A stretch of DNA of 40,748 nucleotides from assembly GCA_019247925.1 (NCBI GenBank), contig JAFBAG010000195.1:1-40748 (forward strand), read 5' to 3'. Below, piece after piece: positions 19,454-30,412 of this stretch (its first letter is position 1; each line of letters starts with the position of its first letter). A program made the position numbers and the translations under genes. This DNA is from Pseudolabrys sp. (GTDB taxonomy: Bacteria; Pseudomonadota; Alphaproteobacteria; Rhizobiales; Xanthobacteraceae). Below the pieces are notes generated by a model. That model did not search any database. It was given only the letters and a program-made list of their open reading frames with translations, and was not told the origin of the DNA.

Positions 19454-20452
19454 TTATTCCGCCACCAGTTCCTTCGCCTTGGCGATCCAGCTTTCCACGC
19501 GACCCGGCAGACCCACTTCTTCACCGATGTAATGCGCGGCCTTGCCGCTGAGATCGGCAAATTGCTGGAAGTGGAAGATGCCGAGGTCGTTGAGCTGCTT
19601 TTCGATCGCGCCGGACACGCCTGGCAGCTTCTTGAGATCGTCGGCAGCGCCACGCGGTCCGGGCAATGCCTCATAGCCGTGATCGTCGGCAGCCGGTGCG
19701 GTCGACACGCTTTCGACGGTCGGCTTCTCGGCTGCGCCGACATCGATGCCGGATTCGCCTTGTGCGCGCGAAATACCGTCGATTGCCGCCTTGGCGACCA
19801 GATCGCAATAAAGCGACAGCGCGCGGCTGGCATCGTCGTTGCCCGGGACGACGTGGCTGATGCCGGCCGGATCCGAGTTCGTATCGACGATCGCCGCGAC
19901 CGGAATGCCGAGGCGCTGGGCCTCCTTGATCGCGATGTCTTCCTTGTTCGTGTCGATCACGAACAGCAGGTCGGGCACGCCGCCCATGTCCTTGATGCCG
20001 CCGAGCGAGCGGTCGAGCTTGTCGCGCTCGCGCTGCATCGTCAGGCGCTCTTTCTTGGTGTAGCCGCCGGCTTCGTTGGACGACAGCATCTCGTCGAGCT
20101 TGCGCAGCCGCGCGATCGAGCCGGAAATCGTCTTCCAGTTGGTCAGCGTGCCGCCGAGCCAGCGAGAATTCACGTAATATTGCGCGCAACGTTTCGCCGC
20201 GTCAGCGACCGCATCTTGCGCCTGCCGCTTGGTGCCGACGAACAGAATTCGTCCGCCCTTGGCGACGGTATCGCTGACGGCCTGCAGCGCCTTGTGCAGC
20301 ATCGGCACGGTCTGCGCGAGGTCGACGATATGGATGTTGTTGCGGGTGCCGAAGATGTATTCGCCCATCTTCGGGTTCCAGCGGTGGGCCTGGTGGCCAA
20401 AGTGCACGCCAGCTTCCAATAGCTGACGCATTGAGAAATCAGGAAGCGCCAT
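19454..20452 (-). CDS. rpsB: 30S ribosomal protein S2 with C-terminal extension (start [21 protein letters not shown] at 20452)
   Basis: [34 protein letters not shown]; extra C-terminal domain [38 protein letters not shown]... Confidence 0.97.
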
Positions 20453-20577
20453 AAACATTCTCCGGTTGGTCCGCCGCGGACGGGAGAGGCTGATTTCGTT
20501 GCTGAAACCGGCCACCGGACGGCTTATTGGCTCGTTGTGGGAGCCGAAAGCCAACGTCCGCGTGAGTGATGGCCGCG

Positions 20578-20643: not shown

Positions 20644-23600
20644 CTAAAGCGCCTCGACTGCCACAACTCCGGGAACTGCTTTGATCGCGCCCGCGATTTG
20701 CGGCGAGACCTTGAAGCGCCCGGGCAGCTTGATCTCGACCTCGGTGGCGACGTCGATCAGCAAGATCACGCTCACTTCGCCGTCGCCGGTACCATTGCCA
20801 TTGCGTCCCCGCGGCGCTGCTTCGAGCCGCTTGGCGACGGCTTCGAGCGGAGCGTCGTTGCGCAAAAACACCCGTAGCGCCGTATTCAGATTTGCCGCTG
20901 CGGCATCGAGCGGCTCGGCGGATTGGATGCGGGCGCGAACCTCGTCGCCCTGCACTTCGGCGGAAAGAAAAAGCAGAACGGCGTTGCCGGGCTCAAGAAG
21001 ATCGCGATGTGCGGCGAGCCCTTCCGCGAAAATGACGGCCTCGTAGTGCCCGCTCGGATCGGACAAGCCGATGATGCCCATCTTGTTGCCGGTCTTGGTG
21101 CGCCGCTCCGTGCGCGAAACGACTGTCGCCGCCACGCGGCCCGCGCTCGCGCCGCCCTTCACAGCGCGAGAGAACTCCGCCCAGCTCTGAACCCGCAGCC
21201 GCTTCAGCACGGCCGCGTAATCGTCGAGCGGATGCCCGGACAGGAAGAAGCCGATCGCCTCATATTCCTTGCGCAGTTTCTCCGCAGGCAACCACGGTTC
21301 GACTTTCGGCAGTACGATGGGCTCGCGCCGCCCCGCAGTGCCAAATATGTCGCCCTGCCCGACAGATGCAGCTTCGTGCGCATGCTGTGCTTGGGCCAGC
21401 ATCTTATCGACGCCGCCATAGAGCCGCGCCCGGTTATCGTCAAAAGTATCGAAAGCACCGGCCGCGATCAGGCTTTCCAGCACGCGCTTGTTGACGGCGC
21501 GGGGATTGATGCGCGCCGCGAAATCGGTGACGCCGTCGAAAGGCTTCTTGGCGCGTTCGTCCACGATCGCCTGGACCGCTTGCGTGCCGACGCCTTTGAG
21601 GGCTGCCAGCGCATAAAGGATGGTGTCGCCTTCCACGTCGAATTCGACGCCCGAACGATTGATGGAGGGCGGCGCTACCTTGATGCCGAGCCGCTCCGCC
21701 TCGGCGCGAAATTCCGCGAGCTTGTCGGTGTTACTCATGTCGAGCGTCATCGACGCCGCGAGAAACTCGACCGGATAATTGGCCTTCATATACGCGGTTT
21801 GATAAGCGACGAGAGCGTAAGCCGCGGCGTGACTCTTGTTGAAGCCGTACTCGGCGAAGCGCTCGAGCAGATCGAAAATCAGATCGGCTTGATATTTTTC
21901 GATGTTGTTCTTTAGCGCGCCGTCGACGAAGTGCTTGCGTTGCGCCTGCATTTCGGATCGGATTTTCTTACCCATGGCGCGGCGCAGCAGGTCGGCTTGG
22001 CCGAGCGTGTAGCCGGCGAGGATCTGCGCCGCCTGCATCACCTGTTCCTGGTAGACAATGACGCCGAATGTCTCGCGCAGGATCGGTTCGAGCTTGGGAT
22101 GAACGTATTCCGGCTTTTCCATACCGTGCTTGCGCGCACAGTAAGTCGGAATATTCGCCATCGGGCCCGGGCGGTAGAGCGCGACCAGCGCGATGATGTC
22201 CTCGAAGCGGTCGGGCCGCATATCGAGCAGCGCCCGCCGCATGCCCTGACTTTCCAGTTGGAAGATGCCGACCGCTTCAGCCCGCGCCAGGAGCTCGTAG
22301 GTTTTCTTGTCGTCGAGCGGGATGGCCGCAAGATCGATGTCGATACCGCGCCGCTTCACCAGATCGACGGCCTTCTTCAGAACGGTGAGAGTTTTGAGAC
22401 CGAGGAAGTCGAATTTGACGAGGCCCGCCTGCTCAACCCATTTCATGTTGAATTGGGTCACCGGCATGTCCGACTTCGGATCGCGATAGAGCGGCACCAG
22501 CTCCGAAAGCGGCCTATCGCCGATGACGATGCCGGCAGCGTGCGTCGAAGCGTGCCGGGTCAGGCCCTCCAATTTGATCGCAATGTCGAAGGCCCTTTTA
22601 ACGACCGGGTCGCGGTCGCGCTCCGCTTGCAGCCGGGGTTCGCCATCGATGGCCTGGGTGAGCGATATCGGTGCTGCCGGATTTTGTGGCACTAGCTTAC
22701 AAAGCTTATCGACGTGCCCGTAGGCCATCTGCAGGACGCGGCCGACGTCACGCAGAACACCGCGCGCCTGCAAGGTGCCGAAGGTGATGATCTGCGCGAC
22801 CTGATCGCGGCCGTAACGCTCCTGCACGTAGCGTATCACTTCGTCGCGCCGCTCCTGGCAGAAATCGATGTCGAAGTCCGGCATCGAGACGCGTTCGGGG
22901 TTGAGGAAGCGCTCGAACAGCAGCCCGAAACGCATCGGATCGAGATCCGTGATGGTCAGCGCATACGAAACCAAGGACCCTGCGCCCGAGCCGCGGCCCG
23001 GTCCTACCGGAATCTGATTGGCCTTCGCCCATTGGATAAAGTCGGCGACGATCAGAAAATATCCCGGGTATTTCATGTTCGCGATAACGTTGAGCTCGAA
23101 GCTCAGACGGTCGCGGTATTCTTGCTCGGTATGGCCTGGCGCGACGCCATGCGTCGCAATGCGGTGCGCGAGCCCCGCTTCGGCGCGGTTGCGCAGTTCG
23201 GCCGCCTCATCGACGTTACGATCGCCAACGGTGAAGCGCGGCAGAATCGGTTCATGAGTGCAAGGCCGGAATGCGCACCGTTGCGCGATCTCTACGGTCG
23301 ATGCCAACGCTTCGGGAAGATCGGCAAAGAGCGCCTTCATCTCAGCGCGTGATTTGAAGCGATGTTCCGGCGTGAGCTGGCGGCGATCGCCCTCGGCGAC
23401 AAGCCGGCCGCCCGCGATGCAGATCAGCGCATCGTGGGCTTCGAAATCTTCCACCGTGGCAAAATACGGTTCATTCGTTGCCACCAGCGGAATGCCGTGG
23501 GCATAAGCGAGATCCAGCAGCGCAGGCTCGCTGACGCGCTGCGCCGCCGTGCCCTGGCGCTGCAATTCCACATAAAGCCGATCGCCGAACAACTTGATCA

Positions 23601-24099
23601 GAGAGGTGAATCGCGGCAGCGCCAGATGGCTTTGCCCCGCCGAGATTGCCTGATCGAGAGGTCCGCCTGGCCCGCCTGTGAGGGCGATAATCCCGTCGGT
23701 CTGGCCTTCGAGCCAGCTCAGCTTGATGTGCGGCTGCTCCGACGATGGCGTTTCCAGAAACGCGCGCGAATTAAGCCGCATAAGACTCTCATATCCGGCT
23801 CTTGTCGCCGCCAGCAAAACGATGCGCGGGCGCGGCGCGGCGCTCGTCATGCCGCGCACGCCCTGTTCTCCATCTGCGAAATCGACTGCCAAGGCGCAGC
23901 CGACGATGGGCTGGATGCCGGAAGCCGCGAATTTTTCCGAGAATTCGAGCGCACCGAACATGTTGTCGGTGTCGGTAAGCGCCAAGGCCGGCTGTTTATC
24001 CGCTTTGGCCAGGTCGGCGAGACGGCTGATTGTCAGCGCGCCTTCCAGCAGCGAATAAGACGAATGCACGTGCAGGTGAACGAAATCGAGTTCAGCCAT
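20644..24099 (-). CDS. dnaE: DNA polymerase III alpha subunit (start MAELDFVHLHVHSSYSLLEGA at 24099)
   Basis: PHP domain FVHLHVHSSYSLLEGA, GPGRGSGAGSLVSYALTITDLDPMRFGLLFERFLNPERVSMPDFDIDFCQERRDEVI, YQEQVMQAAQILAGYTLGQADLLRRAMGKK. Confidence 0.97.
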   Translation of the reverse strand: MAELDFVHLHVHSSYSLLEGALTISRLADLAKADKQPALALTDTDNMFGALEFSEKFAASGIQPIVGCALAVDFADGEQGVRGMTSAAPRPRIVLLAATRAGYESLMRLNSRAFLETPSSEQPHIKLSWLEGQTDGIIALTGGPGGPLDQAISAGQSHLALPRFTSLIKLFGDRLYVELQRQGTAAQRVSEPALLDLAYAHGIPLVATNEPYFATVEDFEAHDALICIAGGRLVAEGDRRQLTPEHRFKSRAEMKALFADLPEALASTVEIAQRCAFRPCTHEPILPRFTVGDRNVDEAAELRNRAEAGLAHRIATHGVAPGHTEQEYRDRLSFELNVIANMKYPGYFLIVADFIQWAKANQIPVGPGRGSGAGSLVSYALTITDLDPMRFGLLFERFLNPERVSMPDFDIDFCQERRDEVIRYVQERYGRDQVAQIITFGTLQARGVLRDVGRVLQMAYGHVDKLCKLVPQNPAAPISLTQAIDGEPRLQAERDRDPVVKRAFDIAIKLEGLTRHASTHAAGIVIGDRPLSELVPLYRDPKSDMPVTQFNMKWVEQAGLVKFDFLGLKTLTVLKKAVDLVKRRGIDIDLAAIPLDDKKTYELLARAEAVGIFQLESQGMRRALLDMRPDRFEDIIALVALYRPGPMANIPTYCARKHGMEKPEYVHPKLEPILRETFGVIVYQEQVMQAAQILAGYTLGQADLLRRAMGKKIRSEMQAQRKHFVDGALKNNIEKYQADLIFDLLERFAEYGFNKSHAAAYALVAYQTAYMKANYPVEFLAASMTLDMSNTDKLAEFRAEAERLGIKVAPPSINRSGVEFDVEGDTILYALAALKGVGTQAVQAIVDERAKKPFDGVTDFAARINPRAVNKRVLESLIAAGAFDTFDDNRARLYGGVDKMLAQAQHAHEAASVGQGDIFGTAGRREPIVLPKVEPWLPAEKLRKEYEAIGFFLSGHPLDDYAAVLKRLRVQSWAEFSRAVKGGASAGRVAATVVSRTERRTKTGNKMGIIGLSDPSGHYEAVIFAEGLAAHRDLLEPGNAVLLFLSAEVQGDEVRARIQSAEPLDAAAANLNTALRVFLRNDAPLEAVAKRLEAAPRGRNGNGTGDGEVSVILLIDVATEVEIKLPGRFKVSPQIAGAIKAVPGVVAVEAL

Positions 24100-24201
24100 C
24101 AGCCGGTGGTCCCGCGATTCTCTCTTCGAAAGACAGTGCGAACCCCTCGCCGCCAAGTCCACCCGCGGCTAGCCGAAGTCCCGCTATTCACCGGAAAAGA
24201 A

Positions 24202-24226
24202 AATGCCCGGCAGAAAGCCGGGCATT
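24202..24226 (-). terminator. Intrinsic terminator of the 24270-24368 microgene
   Basis: Minus strand AATGCCCGGC-TTTCT-GCCGGGCATT followed by TTCTTTTCC: perfect 10-bp stem plus U-rich tail. Confidence 0.88.
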
Positions 24227-24269
24227 GGGGGACGCACACGCAGACCTACGCAACAGGGAACGCAACGCA

Positions 24270-24368
24270 CTACAGATTGGTCAGCACCTGCGACCAGATC
24301 ACGATCATGCCGCCGAACAAGGCAAGCGAAGCGAGGGCAGCCGCATCTTGGATGAGCGCGCGAAACAT
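24270..24368 (-). CDS. 32-aa single-transmembrane microprotein, predicted SOS-regulated
   Basis: Manual translation: MFRALIQDAAALASLALFGGMIVIWSQVLTNL*; GGAG ribosome-binding site 6 nt before ATG; hydrophobic segment LASLALFGGMIVIW; flanked by its own promoter/operators and terminator. Below the length cut-off of the supplied ORF track. Confidence 0.75.
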   Translation of the reverse strand: MFRALIQDAAALASLALFGGMIVIWSQVLTNL

Positions 24369-24385
24369 GACCGTCTCCATCAAAA

Positions 24386-24418
24386 GAACAGACGAAGAAC
24401 ATAGTTCATGTTATGTTC
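24386..24418 (-). promoter_or_regulatory. Two alphaproteobacterial LexA/SOS boxes
   Basis: Plus strand GAAC-AGACGAA-GAAC (24386-24400) and GTTC-ATGTTAT-GTTC (24404-24418), 3 bp apart; each matches GTTCN7GTTC or its complement GAACN7GAAC exactly. Confidence 0.82.
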
Positions 24419-24427
24419 CCTTGTCAA
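24398..24427 (-). promoter_or_regulatory. Sigma70-like promoter of the microgene
   Basis: Minus strand TTGACA (24427-24422) with TATGTT (24403-24398) at an 18-nt spacer; interleaved with the SOS boxes. Confidence 0.7.
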
Positions 24428-24453: not shown

Positions 24454-25164
24454 CTAATCCAGCTCGACGACTTGACCGTCCTGGATCGTCACGCGCCGAT
24501 CCATACGGGCTGCCAGATCCATGTTGTGGGTGGCAACGACCGTCGCGAGATTGGAGGCTTGGACGAGCTGGGTGAGCGCCGAAAATACGTGGTCGGCGGT
24601 ATGGGGATCCAGATTGCCGGTCGGCTCGTCGGCCAGCAGGACGCGGGGTGCGTTGGCAACCGCTCGGGCGATCGCCACCCGCTGCTGCTCGCCACCCGAC
24701 AGCTCGGCGGGCCTATGGGTCAAACGCTGACCAAGTCCGAGATAGCCCAGAAGCTCGACGGCGCGCGCCCTCGCCTCGCCCCGTGACAGGCCCCGGATCA
24801 TCTGGGGAAGCAAAACGTTCTCGAGCGCGCTGAATTCCGGCAGCAGATGATGGGACTGGTAGACGAAGCCGATATCGTCGCGCCGGATGCGGGTGCGTTC
24901 GGTATCGGGAAGCGTCGAAGTTGCGACGCTATCGATATAGACTTCTCCTGCGTCCGGATGCTCGAGCAGGCCGGCGAGATGCAGCAGCGTCGATTTGCCG
25001 GCACCCGATGGCCCGACCAGCGCAACCGATTGACCCGGCCACACCGCCAGCTCCGCGCCGTTGAGAATATCGAGCGTGGCATCCCCTTGACGATAATGCC
25101 GTTCGATATTGTGCAGGAACAGGACCGGCGAATCTTCGCCCTGCGTTACGTTGAGCTCACTCAT
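24454..25164 (-). CDS. lolD: Lipoprotein-releasing ABC transporter ATP-binding protein LolD
   Basis: [60 protein letters not shown]. Confidence 0.93.
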
Positions 25165-28271: not shown

Positions 28272-28301
28272 CACTGCGCTCTCAATGTCATGCCAAACAG
28301 G

Positions 28302-28832
28302 ATGGATTCCATGAAAGCTGTTTTACGCTTTGGTAGAGTTGCGCTTCTTCTTGGCGCGTCAGCGCTGCCTTCTAACGCCCATGTGACGCTCGAACAACGC
28401 GAAGCCACTCTCGGCGCGCCCACCAAGCTGACGTTCCGTGTAGGCCACGGCTGCGGCGAATCTCCAACCATCAAGGTCCGGGTGCAAATCCCCGAAGGCG
28501 TTATCGCCGCCAAACCCATGCCGAAACCCGGCTGGGCTATCGACACGTTCAAAAGCAGATATGCGAAGACCTATGAGTTCTTCCATGGCGCCAAACTGTC
28601 GGAAGGCGTCACCGAAATCGCCTGGACCGGCAAGCTCGCCGATGCGCATTACGACGAATTCGTCGCCTCGGTTTTCGTTGCGGCGGACCTCAAGCCCGGG
28701 CGGCTTTTCTTTCCAGTCGTGCAGGAGTGTGAACAAGGTGTGCATCGCTGGATCGAGATCCCCGCGGGCGGCCAGGCCGGGCACGATCTGAAAGAGCCAG
28801 CGCCCTCGCTTATTCTTACTCCGAAACGATGA
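28302..28832 (+). CDS. YcnI/DUF1775 family periplasmic copper-binding protein (start 28302 or 28311)
   Basis: Signal peptide ending in NAHVTLEQREATLGAPTKLTFRVGHGCGESPT; KPGW motif; DUF1775 layout. Confidence 0.88.
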   Translation: MDSMKAVLRFGRVALLLGASALPSNAHVTLEQREATLGAPTKLTFRVGHGCGESPTIKVRVQIPEGVIAAKPMPKPGWAIDTFKSRYAKTYEFFHGAKLSEGVTEIAWTGKLADAHYDEFVASVFVAADLKPGRLFFPVVQECEQGVHRWIEIPAGGQAGHDLKEPAPSLILTPKR

Positions 28833-30412
28833 CCGGCGCCGCGGCGCGGATCGTTTGGCTTGCGATCCTGCTGACCGCCGCGCTTTGCAGCGCGGCGGGC
28901 CCGGCCTTTGCGCATGCCACTTTGGTGCGCGCGGAGCCGCGCGACGGCGCGATGCTATCAGCGGCGCCTGCCGAGCTGAGCCTCACGTTCAACGAGCCTG
29001 TCGCCGGGCTGGTGTTCAAGCTGGTGAGCCCCGACGGCGGGACGAGCAATCCGGCCTTTGTGGTCGAGGACCGCACCGTCACGTTGAGAGCTCCGAGCCT
29101 TCTCGGTCAAGGCAGTTACATTCTGAGCTGGCGCGTGGCTTCGGCAGATGGCCATCCCGTCGGTGGCGCTTTGCAATTCTCGATCGGGGTGCGCAGCAGC
29201 GCGCCAGCCAACATCAACAGCACGGACCGAGGGCTCGCTGTTGCCATCTGGCTGGCACGTCTGGCGATCTATGCCGGTCTGTTTATCGGCATTGGCGGGC
29301 TTGCATTCCCGGTTTGGACCGGAACGAAATTGCCGCCAAAGGCGGCGGCCGTCGTCGCGAGTGTTTCGGCGGTCGCGTTCGCAGCAATTCCGCTCTCGAT
29401 CGGCTTTCAGGGCGTCGACGCGCTCGCCTTGCCGCTCGAAAGCTTCTGGCGGCCCGAGGCTTATATCGCGGGTCTCAAAACCGTCTACGCGACGAGTGCT
29501 CTGATCGCGGGATGCGGGCTGGCGATAAGTTTTGCTGTCGCAGGGGCTCGCAATCGAAACCTTACCAGATTGCTGTCACTCTCTTCAATCGTCCTGGCAG
29601 CAGCCGCGCTTGCCGCTAGCGGGCACGCCAGCAATGCGATGCCACAGTGGCTCACGCGGCCCTCGGTTTTCATTCATGGAATTGCCGTTGCGCTCTGGGC
29701 CGGTTCGCTGATCCCGCTTTGGTTCTTGTTTCGCGCGACCGCGAGACACTCTGTGGTGCTCCTGCGCTTTTCGCGCGCCATCATGTTTGTGCTGGCGGGC
29801 CTTCTCATCAGCGGCACCATCCTCGCCGTCATTCAGATCGAACACGCCGCTGCAATCTGGACGACCGATTATGGGCGCATTTTCGCGGCCAAGCTCGTCC
29901 TGGTCGCCACCCTTCTTTGCATTGCAGCTTACAATCGTTATGTGCTGACGCCGGGCGTCCTGCGGGCCCGTGCAAAAGCGCGGCGGCTTTTCGTCCGTTC
30001 GGTCGGCGCGGAGCTTGGCTGCATCATCGCCATTCTGGGCTTGGTCGCGCTGTGGCGCTTCACGCCGCCGCCCCGATCGATCGCTTCCGGCGAGCCCGCT
30101 TTTGTCCACCTCCACGGTGAAAAGGTGATGGCTGATGTGACTATGTCGCCCGGTCGTGCCGGGCCAATCGAATTGCGCATCCACCTGATGCAGGAAGATT
30201 TCACATCGTTGCGCGCCAAGGAAGTGACCGTCGCCCTTTCCGCCCCGGGTCTGGAAGGCCTGCAGCGTGCGGCACGCCAGGGAAATGACGGTGATTGGCG
30301 CGTCACCAATGTGAGTCTGCCGATGGGTGGGGTCTGGACCGTGCGGGTCGAGACCTTGGTCGACGATTTCAGGAGAGAAATCCTTGACGGTCCCCTCGTG
30401 GTCGGACGCTAG
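28829..30412 (+). CDS. CopC-CopD fusion copper resistance/uptake protein with a C-terminal YtkA/FixH-like domain
   Basis: AFAHATLVRAEPRDGAMLSAAPAELSLTFNEPV (CopC), multi-TM CopD region, C-terminal MADVTMSPGRAGPIELRIHLM...WRVTNVSLPMGGVWTVRVE. Confidence 0.9.
   Translation: MTGAAARIVWLAILLTAALCSAAGPAFAHATLVRAEPRDGAMLSAAPAELSLTFNEPVAGLVFKLVSPDGGTSNPAFVVEDRTVTLRAPSLLGQGSYILSWRVASADGHPVGGALQFSIGVRSSAPANINSTDRGLAVAIWLARLAIYAGLFIGIGGLAFPVWTGTKLPPKAAAVVASVSAVAFAAIPLSIGFQGVDALALPLESFWRPEAYIAGLKTVYATSALIAGCGLAISFAVAGARNRNLTRLLSLSSIVLAAAALAASGHASNAMPQWLTRPSVFIHGIAVALWAGSLIPLWFLFRATARHSVVLLRFSRAIMFVLAGLLISGTILAVIQIEHAAAIWTTDYGRIFAAKLVLVATLLCIAAYNRYVLTPGVLRARAKARRLFVRSVGAELGCIIAILGLVALWRFTPPPRSIASGEPAFVHLHGEKVMADVTMSPGRAGPIELRIHLMQEDFTSLRAKEVTVALSAPGLEGLQRAARQGNDGDWRVTNVSLPMGGVWTVRVETLVDDFRREILDGPLVVGR

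Follow-up and report, generated by a model that had tools for sequence, protein, structure and literature searches.

Organisation of the lolD–dnaE interval

The window analysed here is a stretch of 40,748 nucleotides (40.7 kb) of Pseudolabrys DNA, taken at its full length. Within it, the genes lolD (24454..25164) and dnaE, encoding the DNA polymerase III alpha subunit (20644..24099, with its ATG at 24099 and an alternative GTG at 24162), both lie on the minus strand, lolD as the upstream and dnaE as the downstream neighbour of the region described below, and dnaE served as the positional marker. Read on the minus strand, the interval between them holds a promoter overlapped by two LexA boxes, a ribosome-binding site, a small open reading frame (ORF) and a terminator-like hairpin.

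LexA in alphaproteobacteria recognises GTTCN7GTTC. Two exact boxes of this type, in opposite orientation and with a 3-bp gap, had been reported by a first-pass annotation, and we found both where it had placed them. Box 1 (24404..24418, plus strand) reads GTTCATGTTATGTTC, which is GAACATAACATGAAC on the minus strand, and box 2 (24386..24400, minus strand) reads GTTCTTCGTCTGTTC, which is GAACAGACGAAGAAC on the plus strand. Together they form a composite twin operator, GAACN7GAAC-TAT-GTTCN7GTTC (24386..24418, minus strand), with a centre-to-centre distance of 18 bp; the lolD stop lies 35 bp from it. A GAACATA/TATGTTC inverted repeat, also noted in the first-pass annotation, is indeed present (24397-24403 and 24412-24418), but it merely counts the half-sites again. 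Like the known alphaproteobacterial SOS box, both boxes are exact direct repeats that overlap a promoter; the difference is that two of them stand here in a dyad arrangement over one promoter. In Caulobacter, about 97% of the SOS promoters carry one box (PMC12700426).

The promoter proposed on the minus strand across the boxes is sigma-70-like and was borne out: nothing else in the region matches a promoter as well as the -35 hexamer TTGACA (24422..24427), an 18-bp spacer and the -10 hexamer TATGTT (24398..24403). The -10 hexamer is composed of the 3-bp gap TAT and the GTT of box 2. Box 1 occupies the spacer between the two hexamers, and box 2 extends from the -10 element over the expected transcription start, so that LexA bound to either box should exclude RNA polymerase.

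Between the operator and dnaE we found a 32-aa ORF that had been overlooked (24270..24368, minus strand; MFRALIQDAAALASLALFGGMIVIWSQVLTNL), hereafter the sidA-like gene. Its ATG lies 17 nt past the operator on the minus strand and is preceded, at 6 nt, by the Shine-Dalgarno sequence GGAG (24375..24378, minus strand). The product has one predicted transmembrane (TM) helix, with the best window at residues 11-29 and a 19-residue hydropathy of 1.89. Scans with Pfam and NCBIfam gave no model matching the 32-aa proteins, an example of how a gene of some 30 codons can escape notice.

Past the stop of the small ORF, and before dnaE, an intrinsic-terminator-like hairpin was predicted on the same strand (24202..24226, minus strand; AATGCCCGGC-TTTCT-GCCGGGCATT followed by TTCTTTTCC). 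It consists of a 10-bp hairpin and a T-rich tail, and the unit thus looks monocistronic in this window. Relatives searched for a terminator between the small ORF and dnaE generally have no such hairpin, which limits the claim of a single-gene transcript to the window.

Two further features of the window lie outside this interval. The ribosomal protein S2 ORF at 19454-20554 (minus strand) has a long C-terminal extension resembling a helix-hairpin-helix-type domain, and at 28290-30412 (plus strand) a YcnI-like (DUF1775) gene is followed by a CopC-CopD-like fusion, by eye a likely copper-handling pair.

Conservation of the twin operator and of the small ORF

The first-pass annotation had also held that two exact matches in opposite orientation within one short intergenic promoter were improbable by chance. 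Counted singly, the boxes are unremarkable: the whole window has no exact match besides these two, 1.27 were expected in it and at least two occurred in 40 of 100 shuffles, and genome-wide there are 52 matches against 81 for the reversed control pattern. It is the paired arrangement that exceeds chance; the Pseudolabrys genome has one composite site and no control composite. When the pattern GAACN7GAAC-N0-10-GTTCN7GTTC was searched in 120 genomes of the family, the composite operator was found in 75 of them, compared with a handful of control-pattern matches. Among the 75 composite sites listed, the gap is exactly 3 bp in 65 and the small ORF lies 11-86 nt downstream in 72, and of the other three, two stand ahead of a short, divergent TM ORF.

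For half-site conservation, 29 loci were picked through the small ORF with the boxes ignored. All 16 half-site bases are intact in 27 of these ORF-anchored loci, and the N7 spacers and flanks are mostly variable, which is the reverse of the pattern (flanks kept, boxes lost) that the first-pass annotation had set against its own reading. That the boxes came together by chance in promoter DNA of higher AT content would agree with the single-box counts, which are at chance level in window and genome alike, but the recurrence of the composite among relatives and the invariant half-sites beside varying spacers refute this explanation, and we give it practically no weight.

The promoter elements are retained together with the boxes. 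In nearly all loci compared, TTGAC stands 17-20 nt (mostly 18) before the -10 hexamer, and in the relatives this hexamer is again made of the gap and the start of box 2 (AATGTT in some genera, TATGTT here). The relatives shown also have a G-rich, ribosome-site-like stretch ahead of the small-ORF ATG. The same Pseudolabrys genome encodes an alphaproteobacterial-type LexA (G000:C77, PF01726 above the cut-off), in which the Ala-Gly cleavage site and the Ser/Lys residues are intact, and the lexA gene itself has an exact box upstream. Conservation, promoter overlap and the presence of this lexA strongly support LexA control of the promoter described here.

In one genus (g10; L324, L325 and L327) the operator is retained with a 4-bp gap and the small ORF is strongly diverged (MRAAASDLMRALTSASLLAGTLVVWAKLLAVL); it was located via the operator, BLAST having missed or barely detected the gene. 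In one genome the operator-ORF unit occurs twice, on separate contigs (G004:C427 and G004:C504), which may reflect a strain mixture or a duplication.

BLAST (E < 1e-3) detected the small ORF in the majority of the 120 genomes of the family, and all 30 loci retrieved encode 32 aa from an ATG start. Its median dN/dS of about 0.16 indicates purifying selection. Substitutions at codon positions 1/2/3 numbered 201/44/378, and the other two forward frames were without a comparable signal. In nearly all relatives dnaE follows directly downstream. About nine genera of the family have neither operator nor ORF upstream of dnaE, so the unit is dispensable. The genera in which twin operator and small ORF are absent before dnaE are g2, g7, g14, g16, g19, g24, g33, g41 and g47 (L336-L344, L329, L332-L335), and loss, relocation or replacement could each account for this.

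Of the LexA-controlled promoter that the first-pass annotation had put between lolD and dnaE, the LexA control stood, but assigning the promoter to dnaE is not the best reading, because the promoter lies immediately ahead of a conserved 32-aa gene that the hairpin then separates from dnaE. If the twin boxes chiefly regulated dnaE, more replicative polymerase would be made after DNA damage, with the small ORF as a leader or a by-product. The arrangement gives this some footing: dnaE is on the same strand, 170 nt past the small-ORF stop, a search of 24080-24300 gave no further promoter-like match, and with a terminator that is not generally conserved in relatives, read-through is possible. Against it, the small ORF is under protein-level selection, the operator tracks the small ORF, and a good hairpin terminator stands between small ORF and dnaE in the window; a weak further point is that a search of the Caulobacter SOS-induction paper (PMC12700426) turned up no mention of dnaE. 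We consider control chiefly of dnaE improbable, and the promoter is treated below as that of the sidA-like gene.

Relation to SidA of Caulobacter

SidA is a 29-residue inner-membrane protein; it is SOS-induced, inhibits division and has FtsW and FtsN as interaction partners (PMC4211646). In Caulobacter crescentus its gene is CCNA_02004 (PMC10769358), and dnaE is CC1926 (PMC1839093). Caulobacteraceae genomes were recognised by the closest CtrA and then confirmed through named loci. The family whose CtrA is closest to that of Caulobacter has a 29-aa ORF behind LexA boxes upstream of dnaE. A scan of named genomes with the 29-aa alignment recovered loci in Caulobacter, including C. vibrioides, Phenylobacterium and Brevundimonas, mostly of 29 aa; in all 79 named Caulobacteraceae loci the dnaE start lies no more than 300 nt away, and most of these loci have LexA boxes. 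We take CCNA_02003 to be dnaE, which would place it side by side with sidA. The 29-aa ORF upstream of dnaE in Caulobacter is almost certainly SidA, its C. crescentus letters being deduced from the named C. vibrioides loci.

We compared the protein family of the window with the Caulobacteraceae 29-aa set by hhalign, which gave a gapless match over 25-28 columns with a probability of 82-84%. The score of 23.1 exceeded a shuffle mean of 9.2 and a shuffle maximum of 18.4, none of 200 shuffles was as good, and the reversed control reached 7.7. One gapless register stands out, with 30 against 4 for the next. Taken without position and operator, a profile match of 82-84% is moderate evidence, as short hydrophobic peptides align easily. 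The likeness extends to those features: both are very short single-TM proteins (32 aa here, 29 aa in Caulobacter), both have LexA boxes just upstream and a position directly before dnaE, and the profile similarity covers most of the length without gaps. They differ in that the Caulobacteraceae proteins have an FVWM core where the window family has F-x-G-M-x-x-x-W, and in that the divergent twin pair with its 3-bp gap is found here, while in the Caulobacteraceae loci the boxes are single or point in the same direction.

A short, LexA-controlled, single-TM peptide could also be an SOS-induced membrane-active toxin, one that disturbs the membrane and so slows growth, with no dedicated role as septation inhibitor. 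Peptides of this DinQ/TisB sort, short, SOS-controlled and with a single TM segment, are found in E. coli (PMC3567139), and a sequence by itself does not separate a toxin from a septation inhibitor. What speaks against a toxin, which we regard as unlikely, is that the protein resembles Caulobacteraceae SidA specifically and in exact register, and that both have the same place before dnaE.

By size, helix, position, LexA box and sequence, the window protein is best regarded as a distant member of the SidA group. Other small, damage-induced, single-TM proteins, compared here by description, are YneA, SosA, ChiZ and DidA; they are thought to act at the FtsW/FtsN stage, and DidA is SOS-independent. 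Our main reading, to which we assign a probability of roughly 80%, is that the locus holds a sidA orthologue under a twin LexA operator-promoter: LexA would repress the gene, DNA damage would induce it, and its product would block septation at FtsW/FtsN. In undamaged cells, LexA dimers on both boxes would keep RNA polymerase off the promoter. Upon damage, RecA-stimulated self-cleavage of LexA would free it, and a short leader with the GGAG site would be translated into a burst of the 32-residue inner-membrane peptide. By homology with Caulobacter SidA, the peptide would keep the septal FtsW/FtsI/FtsN complex in an inactive state and postpone division until LexA has recovered. We infer LexA occupancy, induction, membrane insertion, the target and division arrest; the RecA-triggered release, the peptide burst and the septal inhibition rest on homology. 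The exact symmetry and the inner half-sites GAAC-N3-GTTC suggest that two LexA dimers sit side by side and perhaps cooperate. From the sequence, tight repression and strong DNA-damage induction are predicted. The question of how a single promoter accommodates two LexA dimers finds a natural example in this twin operator.

Putative LexA-controlled micro-ORFs in other alphaproteobacteria

SulA is largely confined to gammaproteobacteria, and the means by which other bacteria halt division during DNA damage are known for few species. A profile of the window-family proteins found nothing credible beyond their own family in 395 genomes of the class, and units in other families were revealed only through position plus boxes. 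The comparison covered 87 dnaE-upstream regions belonging to other families and orders. An exact LexA box is present in 24 of them, where 2.8 were expected, and in 16 of the 87 a box is followed by an ORF of 25-60 residues with a hydrophobic helix, compared with 0.02 expected from shuffles. One locus of the same order (L109, MRAVEDMIELASIAAFFAMMTFWAGVGTNWPLI) is among the dnaE-upstream ORFs that resemble the window protein. The remaining box-plus-TM ORFs have in common with it only size, helix, position and control, and homology of all of them is therefore a hypothesis.

Together with the SidA-like gene of the window, these units suggest that a SidA-type DNA-damage brake on cell division reaches far beyond the known case within the alphaproteobacteria. 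In the literature searched we found no mention of SidA outside the relatives of Caulobacter, or of the twin operator; earlier mention is possible, and we claim no priority. The object of interest is the unannotated SidA-like gene under its conserved sites, together with its possible spread across the class. A wider reading, for which we see an even balance of chances, joins these elements: largely unannotated LexA-controlled membrane peptides of about 30-50 residues before dnaE would form a class-wide, ancestral SOS division checkpoint, with SidA as its best-known member. The twin operator would then have been gained in the family of the window, its inner half-sites GAAC-N3-GTTC doubling as the -10 element and allowing cooperative binding of two LexA dimers. 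If this were true, many alphaproteobacteria would have their SOS division inhibitor at one conserved position before dnaE, among them families for which the literature searched gave no such inhibitor, and the question would become testable gene by gene.

Composite boxes with 8-12-bp gaps elsewhere in the class were considered as sidA operators and rejected, as several lie at lexA itself. Such divergent box pairs, located at or near lexA in several further alphaproteobacterial families (L105, L106, L107, L092, L093, L095 and L102), suggest paired-box autoregulation. At two loci in other families (L163 and L122), the reverse order, a GTTC pair and then a GAAC pair, stands before short TM ORFs upstream of dnaE, a second design of twin operator.
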